NCBI GenBank assembly: GCA_016838825.1 | Contig: JAEHKU010000001.1 | Location: 1-64,000 of the forward strand | DNA length: 64,000 bases | Source of the DNA: Nitrosopumilales archaeon | GTDB lineage: Archaea; Thermoproteota; Nitrososphaeria; Nitrososphaerales; Nitrosopumilaceae | Direction: 5' to 3' | In this document: one piece after another, positions 3,793-34,656 of the stretch | Position numbering within the stretch: position 1 is the stretch's first letter | How the letters are laid out: the number at the start of each line of letters is the position of its first letter | The notes under the pieces: model-generated | What the model was told of the DNA's origin: nothing | Seen by the model: the letters and a program-made list of their open reading frames with translations, nothing else | The model's database searches: none | Program-made: the position numbers and the translations under genes

Positions 3793-4281
3793 ATGGATTT
3801 AAGTGAACATATACAAGCTCATCTTCTTTCTGTGTGGAGAGAAGAAAAAAAATTATTTTCTCGTGCTAGAGAAGGGATGCTCTTCCTTACTGAAAGACAT
3901 TTGATGTTTGTAAGTAAAACCGATGCCAAGATGAAATGGTGGGGTGCTACTACACAAAGACAGGTTCTTACTTTAATGAAATCAAAAAACACTATGATTC
4001 ACCAAGACGGATATGATGAACACCGTCTAATACAAGACCTTGAAAACAAAAAAAACATGGAAGTTAGCTTAGATAGAATTTTGGATATAGGTTCTGAAGA
4101 AAAAAGTTGGGGGAGTGTTTTAAAATTAGAAATTAACATGGGTGAAGCCACAAAAAAATATCAATTCTCAATTGTACAAGATTGGGTCAAATATCCTATA
4201 AAAGATCCTACAAAGTACATGAAAGTTGATTGGTCTCCCTTTGTAGATTACATTAAAGACAGACAAAAGGCAATGAGATAG
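3793..4281 (+). CDS. Hypothetical protein with a PH/GRAM-like segment
   Basis: A 162-residue soluble protein. Residues about 20-50 (SRAREGMLFLTERHLMFVSK) resemble the first strands of GRAM/PH-like domains, where the chain reads G-x-L-x-L-T-x-x-R-L-x-F. The middle is basic and the C-terminus holds a WSPFVDYIK helix. Its stop is only 3 bases before the cbiE start, so the two are probably translationally linked, although no role in cobalamin synthesis is evident. The PH-like call is an inference by eye. Confidence 0.55.
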   Translation: MDLSEHIQAHLLSVWREEKKLFSRAREGMLFLTERHLMFVSKTDAKMKWWGATTQRQVLTLMKSKNTMIHQDGYDEHRLIQDLENKKNMEVSLDRILDIGSEEKSWGSVLKLEINMGEATKKYQFSIVQDWVKYPIKDPTKYMKVDWSPFVDYIKDRQKAMR

Positions 4282-32907: not shown

Positions 32908-33054
32908 TCAATTTTGGTGTTATTTATAAACACAAAGCATTGAGTTGGTTTCCAAAGGGGATTATTTTCTTTATATTGTAATGAATGAATCTTCTAATTT
33001 AGGAAGGAAATTTTTCAATTACAACAGATTATTCATGCAAAAATTTTCATAAAT

Positions 33055-33063
33055 TATTAAATA
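33055..33063 (+). promoter_or_regulatory. TATA box of the structured RNA candidate
   Basis: TATTAAATA lies about 25 bases before the predicted 5' end at 33085, where the outer helix of the RNA begins. No plus-strand coding gene follows within 600 bases, so the box appears to serve the RNA. Confidence 0.55.
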
Positions 33064-33084
33064 GAATGAAAACACACAAAAAAA

Positions 33085-33205
33085 CGTGCATAAGGACAAA
33101 AGTCCTTTTGGCTAAGTCACGTAGCCCCACAGAAACGAAAAATAGATCGGCGTACAGGCACCGAATCGAGAGGTAATCTCTCAAATGTCCTGCGAGGGCT
33201 GCGCA
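33085..33205 (+). ncRNA. Unassigned structured RNA of about 120 bases
   Basis: This GC-richer stretch sits in an AT-rich gap and can fold throughout. Ends pair (GTGC 33086-33089 with GCGC 33201-33204). AAGGAC-aaaa-GTCCTT (33092-33107), GGCTA/TAGCC (33110-33126), GATCGG/CCGAATC (33145-33167) and GAGAG/CTCTC (33168-33182) are local hairpins. AGGAC can instead pair with GTCCT at 33187-33191, and AGCCC (33123) with GGGCT (33196), giving alternative or pseudoknot folds. A TATA box is correctly placed and a T-rich run (33209-33215) follows the closing helix. I could not assign it to SRP, RNase P, 5S or tRNA; ACAGAAA (33129-33135) faintly recalls RNase P RNA. Confidence 0.6.
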
Positions 33206-33628
33206 TTATTTTTTTAAATCTACAGACACGGGTCCAACTAAATTTCCATTAGGATCAATTGTAATTTCTAACGAACTATCTTTAGGAATCTGAATTTCTT
33301 TTACTCCATGGTAATCCCAGGTATAATATTCAGAAATACCTGTATCATGCAATGTTCCCTGAAGCTCAAAGTCCTCTGAAAACAAGAATGAATCACCTTT
33401 CAGAATAATTGAAAGTGTTGTTGGGCTATCTCCATTAGGAACAAAACTAAACTGATAATTTCCTTTTTTTATTTCGAAGCTGTCAACGAAAATTCCATTA
33501 TTATATAATTTGGGATCAGCCAGAGTTATGTGATATTCAACTTTGTCCTCTGATTTTTCAGTTGGGATTAGTCCTATGCCAAGTATGACTCCAATAATAA
33601 TCGGTATTACAACAAGTATTTTTTTCAC
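33206..33628 (-). CDS. Secreted or membrane-anchored hypothetical protein
   Basis: A 140-residue protein with an N-terminal signal anchor (KKILVVIPIIIGVILGIGLI) and a beta-rich extracellular domain. The chain has repeated strand patterns (VEYHITLADPKLYNNGIFVD, GNYQFSFVPNGDSPTTLSII), suggesting an immunoglobulin-like or jelly-roll fold. No lipobox cysteine is present. The 3' end abuts the structured RNA convergently and its lysine tail codes through the T-rich run. No family recognised. Confidence 0.6.
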   Translation of the reverse strand: MKKILVVIPIIIGVILGIGLIPTEKSEDKVEYHITLADPKLYNNGIFVDSFEIKKGNYQFSFVPNGDSPTTLSIILKGDSFLFSEDFELQGTLHDTGISEYYTWDYHGVKEIQIPKDSSLEITIDPNGNLVGPVSVDLKK

Positions 33629-34011: not shown

Positions 34012-34656
34012 GTGCCATCATTCGTAGAAAAGTGGTCGAAACCATCAACACCTGGTTTCACAACGAGATTAAGTGAGACTATAAAACCGAAAGGTGCATT
34101 GAAACCAAGAGTAGAGCATGCAGTTAAGAAACTTCAATCTCAGACTTCAAAGATGGATGCAATGTTAACTAAATTACGAGAAAGAGACCAACAAGTTTTT
34201 CAAAAAATTATAGTTGCAACACAACAACATGATGCACATGGAAGCAAAGTATTAGCAAATGAATTAGTTGAGGTACGTAAAGTCACAAAAGTTCTTGGTA
34301 GTGCAAAAACAGCACTAGATCAAATTGAATTAAGATTAACTACTTTCCATACTCTTGGAGATACAGTAGTTACAATAATGCCAACTATTGGTCTCATGAA
34401 AGGAATGAGATCTTCACTTGCCAAATTCATGCCGGGTGCAGAGCAAGAGCTAAGCCAAATGGCCGAAACATTAGGTGGTTTTATGACTGAAGGTTTCAGT
34501 GACAGTTCATTTACAGCTGACTCTGCAGTAACAAATGATGAATCAGAAAAGATACTTCAAGAAGCAGCTGCCGTTGCAGAATCCTCATTAAATGAGAAAT
34601 TACCATCTACGCCTGTAGAAGAATCCACATCAACATCTACTTCTCGATTCATGTAG
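34012..34656 (+). CDS. cdvB: CdvB-like ESCRT-III protein (Snf7 family)
   Basis: A 214-residue helical protein starting at GTG 34012. A basic N-terminal helix region (about 25-100, PRVEHAVKKLQSQTSKMDAM and on) is followed by further helices and an acidic, serine/threonine-rich tail, the ESCRT-III plan. The C-terminal SLNEKLPSTPVEE resembles a proline-containing MIM2-type motif that would bind the Vps4-like ATPase CdvC. These filaments constrict the membrane at division. Nitrososphaerota carry several CdvB paralogues; which one this is, and where cdvA and cdvC lie, is not visible here. Confidence 0.82.
   Translation: MPSFVEKWSKPSTPGFTTRLSETIKPKGALKPRVEHAVKKLQSQTSKMDAMLTKLRERDQQVFQKIIVATQQHDAHGSKVLANELVEVRKVTKVLGSAKTALDQIELRLTTFHTLGDTVVTIMPTIGLMKGMRSSLAKFMPGAEQELSQMAETLGGFMTEGFSDSSFTADSAVTNDESEKILQEAAAVAESSLNEKLPSTPVEESTSTSTSRFM

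Follow-up and report, generated by a model that had tools for sequence, protein, structure and literature searches.

The stretch of DNA analysed here (the window) comprises 64,000 nt from an assembly of a Nitrosopumilaceae archaeon (1.12 Mb, 93% complete). On its forward strand, positions 33084-33210 form a 127-nt stretch with a GC content of 0.48, compared to about 0.35 for the window background. When folded, the sequence from 33081 to 33212 reached a minimum free energy (MFE) of -40.5 kcal/mol, whereas shuffled versions averaged -27.8 kcal/mol (z = -3.83) and 0 of 200 shuffles equalled it. An initial annotation of this DNA had described a GC-richer stretch that can fold into hairpins, with a promoter box before it and a T run behind it. 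All of these elements were recovered, the promoter box being TTAAATA and the T-rich tract lying at 33206-33215. The broader claim of that annotation, that a structured RNA of no assignable family is transcribed independently here, is supported by sequence conservation, compensatory base changes, a BRE/TATA element at a fixed distance and the lack of any Rfam match. Its term "non-coding RNA" holds for the structured RNA but not for the coding status, as the 5' end contains a conserved micro-ORF. This frame was absent from the initial annotation; it has nine codons, opens with GTG at 33086-33088 and closes with TAA at 33113-33115. The features of the locus are listed in Table 1.

Table 1 Features of the structured RNA locus and its convergent neighbour, in positions of the window
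Feature	Position	Strand	Basis or remark
BRE/TATA element TAAATTATTAAATA	33050..33063 (TATA core TTAAATA 33057-33063)	+	Conserved in 187 members
Leaderless micro-ORF GTG CAT AAG GAC AAA AGT CCT TTT GGC TAA (M/V-HKDKSPFG)	33086..33115	+	Conserved
Hairpin H1 inside the ORF, AAGGAC/GUCCUU	33092..33107	+	MFE
H2, 5' strand	33119..33132 (H2a 33120-33128, H2b 33130-33132)	+	MFE, single folds, covariation
Variable hairpin H3	33145..33167	+	Pairing kept while sequence varies freely
Near-invariant hairpin H4, GAGAG-GUAAU-CUCUC	33168..33182	+	Conserved stretch behind the first BLASTn homologues
H2, 3' strand, H2b then H2a GGGCUGCG	33190..33204	+	MFE, covariation
T-rich 3' end, probable archaeal terminator	33205..33215	+	T runs in relatives
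Convergent neighbour gene, ~140 aa, no Pfam family	33206..33628	-	Stop abuts RNA 3' end; not part of the RNA

BLASTn searches of related genomes returned repeated matches to a single 30-nt stretch, GAGAGGNAATCTCTCAAA, and the loci behind these matches, when read, had an identical layout every time. A covariance model built from eight sequences (R1) detected the RNA in 225 of 250 Nitrosopumilaceae genomes and in 127 of the 131 near-complete ones, usually in 1-4 copies each, with copy numbers that vary with model and threshold in genomes that are mostly MAGs. Most of the homologous loci carry the label Nitrosopumilus, Nitrosarchaeum or Thaumarchaeota. When run across 400 genomes of the class, R1 gave only three marginal matches outside the Nitrosopumilaceae, and an improved model (R3) found nothing credible in 60 genomes from other families of the class (best E 0.135). 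Two weak out-of-family matches that we inspected (L368 and L369) lacked the TATA/ORF layout, and none of the viral contigs searched for the exact H4 motif carries it. Within the family, the RNA is missing from a few lineages, notably genus g5, a small genus with 0.8 Mb genomes, and g13, which means that it is dispensable somewhere. A subtype B shares its base with type A and differs in its apex; model R2 scored it above 80 bits in ~62 of 120 family genomes, usually as a single copy, and did not find it in the genome of the window. The stretch is almost certainly a real structured RNA gene, and its family is missing from Rfam. Few cells in the ocean are as abundant as the Nitrosopumilaceae, which perform much of the ammonia oxidation there; an RNA without an Rfam family that nearly every one of their near-complete genomes carries, in one to a few copies, represents a sizeable gap in their biology.

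In type A members, a 10-bp helix H2a and a 7-bp helix H2b, with a bulge on the 3' side between them, close a three-way junction that holds H3 and H4, the latter with the consensus GAGAG-GNAAU-CUCUC. When the first eight sequences were folded singly and without alignment, H2a and H4 appeared in all of them, as did some form of H3. RNAalifold on 48 type A members gave 23 pairs, 20 of which with compensatory change, and among the same number of sequences four pairs of H3 showed 16-24 double-sided changes each. Among 65 members, 28 of 35 pairs change on both sides, as do 19 of 29 pairs in type B; model-based alignments are biased towards the structure of the model, a bias of which the single-sequence folds are free. 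The covariation score for the 65 members was 0.332, compared to a mean of 0.167 for shuffled and at most 0.094 for slid alignments, so that the compensatory changes exceed both controls, as expected of a conserved structured RNA. In H2a, G-U combinations (58 cells) outnumber A-C combinations (12 cells), which identifies the RNA as the product of the + strand.

The long-range AGCCC/GGGCT match that the initial annotation had pointed out turned out to be the conserved core of the RNA, helix H2 (33120-33128 with 33196-33203). Two other pairings proposed there fared less well. The alternative partner for AGGAC, a GTCCT 90 nt further on that would have allowed a switch, is not seen in the aligned relatives, and the supposed end-to-end helix does not close the molecule, as the outermost ends lack conserved pairing and the closing helix begins at ~33119 rather than at the 5' end of the RNA. 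By eye, the 5' AUGC could possibly pair with GCGU of H2 and thereby sequester the start codon; since both strings are nearly invariant, covariation is uninformative on this point. Type A ORFs, which also form H1, had a mean folding z of -2.0, with 29 of 42 clusters below -1 in a set that includes some type B members; type B is without a strong H1. The apex, which varies between the two subtypes, and the freely varying H3 would be the parts that carry specificity.

The promoter is conserved at a fixed distance from the ORF. Among 187 members, TTAAATA occupies positions -29 to -23 relative to the start codon, each of its bases being 81-94% identical; an A-rich BRE-like tract precedes it (-34 to -32) and another TATA follows (-11 to -8). 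The spacing between TATA and start codon was 22 nt in 135 of 170 members, in line with a leaderless archaeal transcript, for which a TATA box ~22 to 30 nt ahead of the start codon is expected. As a TATA box at such a distance corresponds to the usual archaeal spacing between promoter and start site, the transcript is predicted to begin no more than 1-2 bases from the start codon. At the other end, 150 of 191 members have four or more consecutive T no further than 20 nt from the last CGC, compared to 79 of 203 control stretches. The locus is best explained as a structured RNA gene that stands alone, with a predicted transcript of ~125 nt from its own BRE/TATA promoter.

The micro-ORF was present with nine codons in 62 of the first 65 members. 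To avoid a choice based on length, we took the start codon nearest to the expected position and ignored the stop. Under this ORF-blind rule, 174 of 196 members had exactly nine codons, whereas frames shifted by -2, -1, +1 and +2 gave nine codons in 0, 1, 0 and 5 cases, respectively. The counts include related sequences as separate members; the nine-codon ORF also holds over 34 clusters at 80% identity. In type B, 50 of 53 members had nine codons (shifted frames 0-2), and two of the three exceptions contain a nine-codon frame from a GTG just past the ATG chosen by the rule. The distance between the stop codon and H2 is 3-4 nt in nearly all members, and this gap is kept in the eight-codon variants (n = 9).

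The encoded peptide showed no such constraint. We counted 104 distinct peptides, and close pairs differed by 18 synonymous and 74 nonsynonymous changes, with 23.8 ± 4.1 synonymous changes expected. Selection thus appears, from these comparisons, to act on the start and stop positions of the ORF rather than on its product. Strong selection on the boundaries of an ORF, with none detected on the peptide that it encodes, is an unusual architecture. It suggests that the RNA is built to hold one ribosome and not to make a useful peptide, and it raises the question of whether a cell can use translation of a one-ribosome ORF to regulate an RNA that stands alone.

Comparative sequence analysis establishes the + strand fold, the promoter, the leaderless layout, the fixed ORF boundaries, the stop-to-H2 gap and the unconserved peptide. 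The explanation that in our opinion fits them best, which we hold with a little less than even confidence, is a stand-alone structured RNA that is gated by the ribosome through an ORF indifferent to its peptide, the gating being deduced from the spacing. About 30 nt correspond to roughly one ribosome footprint. The ribosome would initiate on the 5' AUG or GUG, and because the ORF, at 30 nt including the stop codon, is about one footprint long, the RNA would hold one ribosome at most. With the stop codon in the A site, the leading edge of the ribosome would reach several bases into the base of H2. The ribosome would thus open H1, cover the 5' end and touch or open H2, although H1 cannot be essential to such a mechanism given that type B lacks a strong one. 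The useful event would be the act of translation and not the peptide; how stable the 3' domain is, how it folds or how active it is would then depend on the availability of ribosomes. The input would be the arrival or presence of a ribosome, and the output would be whether the 3' domain folds, is stable or is available; this domain may itself be a trans-acting or ribosome-associated regulatory RNA. Conservation of the ORF points to ribosome association as a candidate property. As far as sequence goes, this output could be regulation that acts in trans, the parking of ribosomes or no more than a stable RNA. More tentative again is the specific version in which one leaderless ribosome, by loading and terminating against the structured domain, provides the switching, stabilising or targeting input. 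If true, the RNA could for example sense free ribosomes or park ribosomes in marine archaea that grow slowly.

The strongest competitor, unlikely yet to be taken seriously, is a trans-acting regulatory RNA whose 5' ORF merely protects the transcript, from exonuclease or from termination of untranslated RNA, and has no role in its activity. Such an RNA would equally account for conserved boundaries around an unconserved peptide and for the variable apex. It leaves unexplained, however, why the gap between stop codon and H2 is as tight as 3-4 nt and why the number of codons is fixed at nine.

Considerably less probable is that the AUG and the URR are boxes read as RNA motifs by a protein and that the ORF is untranslated. 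H1 and H2 are real helices that keep their spacing, the energy of H1 is better than chance, and the 27-nt distance between the boxes could be structural. Yet UGG (TGG in the DNA) occupies the position of the stop codon in 0 of 174 members, with 8.7 expected from base frequencies over sequences and 2.7 over 34 clusters, whereas UAA, UAG and UGA all occur. Length variants differ by whole codons and retain the gap to H2. In L273 and L280, the ATG is lost and TTG is found at codon 2. Four different sequences of one paralogue in genus g9 (L268, L269, L275 and L288) have the stop shifted by one codon, to codon 11 (ten codons) and directly against H2, and they use three different stop codons. The ORF is moreover kept in type B, which lacks a strong H1. 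We consider it very probable that the micro-ORF is translated. Adding L271, where the stop is at codon 13, five g9/g21 copies in all have the stop in or past the linker, which counts against the ribosome-gating explanation.

A messenger for a functional nonapeptide, a signal or an inhibitor with a structured 3' UTR, would explain why start, length and stop of the ORF are conserved. We rate it marginally below the protein-read motifs and improbable, given the diversity of peptides, the synonymous changes that do not exceed expectation and the nonsynonymous sites that vary in type B as well.

The succession of a short ORF, a stable structure and a T-rich tract is also the classic layout of a leader-peptide attenuator, in which the micro-ORF and alternative structures would control how the next same-strand gene is transcribed. 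The neighbourhood largely refutes this very unlikely reading. In about ten unrelated contexts, including the window, the downstream gene is on the opposite strand, and it is same-strand in only a few; this orientation indicates a stand-alone gene rather than an attenuator. By eye, the convergent neighbours were an unknown secreted protein (window), AroA, an MFS transporter, TFB and a small heat-shock protein; the neighbours have no function evidently in common. Nor did the peptides, examined for a common codon type or a run of a single amino acid, contain either. The family of the ~140-aa gene in the window is present at 37 of 65 loci. Its members have a signal-like N-terminus and no Pfam match, are always convergent when beside the RNA, and at many loci have their stop codon against its 3' end.

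A reduced RNase P RNA or other known housekeeping RNA, proposed in the initial annotation from the string ACAGAAA and the paired ends, is refuted for practical purposes, as canonical RNase P and SRP RNA genes lie elsewhere in the genome (183.9 bits on contig C7 and 96.4 bits on contig C4, respectively) and neither the locus nor nine homologous loci matched any family of Rfam 15 at gathering thresholds. The archaeal RNase P model (RF00373) failed to match the locus up to an E value of 10, and the archaeal SRP model (RF01857) gave no covariance match there. The RNA has the short string ACAGAAA in common with RNase P RNA but differs in its fold; the string is a strand of H2 and reads GCAGAAC in relatives.

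Other known classes were likewise rejected. A box C/D guide RNA would have RUGAUGA towards its 5' end and CUGA towards its 3' end, a combination found in 0 of 203 members, and the ACA within the last 12 nt expected of a box H/ACA guide RNA occurred in only 16 of 203. ARAGORN, which we used for tRNA and tmRNA, reported no tmRNA in six loci or in the window. A Shine-Dalgarno-like role for H4 (GAGGUAAUC compared to the 16S tail) was assessed by eye and rejected, as the loop base required for the match varies and type B is without it. A literature search found no description of the RNA, within limited coverage of subscription papers on Nitrosopumilus.

Among known systems, SgrS/SgrT, RNAIII and RyhB/RyhP are dual-function sRNAs that encode a defined peptide. 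They resemble our RNA in layout, as a single transcript combines regulatory RNA and ORF (for RyhP, see PMC5331693). In contrast to them, our RNA has fixed ORF boundaries and a free peptide. The trp, his and erm leaders are leader-peptide attenuators and share with our RNA a short ORF directly 5' of a stable structure, with translation as the signal. Unlike these, our RNA is mostly without a same-strand downstream gene and has no conserved codon signature. Dual-function sRNAs and attenuators therefore match in part, and each fails a defining feature that we tested: the conserved peptide in the former and the regulated same-strand gene in the latter.

Closer in domain are archaeal small RNAs. 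The RNA s194 of Haloferax volcanii is a ribosome-associated ncRNA (PMC6104027), and further H. volcanii sRNAs are occupied by ribosomes, some of them also encoding small proteins (PMC12482152). Like our RNA, they are small archaeal RNAs encoded by genes of their own, and they come into contact with the ribosome, a contact that for our RNA is a prediction. They belong to another lineage, and the available parts of these descriptions mention no leaderless ORF with a length fixed at nine codons. Tan1 is an abundant unassigned ncRNA of 229 nt found by RNA-Seq in marine group II Euryarchaeota (PMC5069720). Like our RNA, it is structured, has no assigned family and comes from a marine archaeon of the plankton, in this case of another phylum; by description, it differs in its length and in being demonstrated by RNA-Seq. 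Across what was available of the descriptions of s194, the H. volcanii sRNAs and Tan1 (PMC6104027, PMC12482152, PMC5069720), a leaderless ORF of fixed length that is indifferent to its peptide does not appear.

Several loci showed further particularities. Downstream in the window, positions 34012-34656 (+) have a weak match to Snf7/ESCRT-III (CdvB-like; E 0.0029, below the Pfam cut-off), and this candidate family occurs close to the RNA at 35 of 65 loci. Subtype B of genera g4 and g14 lies antisense between aroC-like and aroA-like genes (L103, L105 and L128, around position 4050). Two copies are AT-rich with a GC content of 0.25-0.28 (L107 4034-4158 (+) and L309 204-325 (-)). The former looks decayed and has a broken ORF; it lies at the main locus of its genome (G156), which has an intact second copy elsewhere. 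Genome G272 contains tandem copies of the RNA ~310 nt apart (L261 1501-1622 and 1810-1930 (+)).
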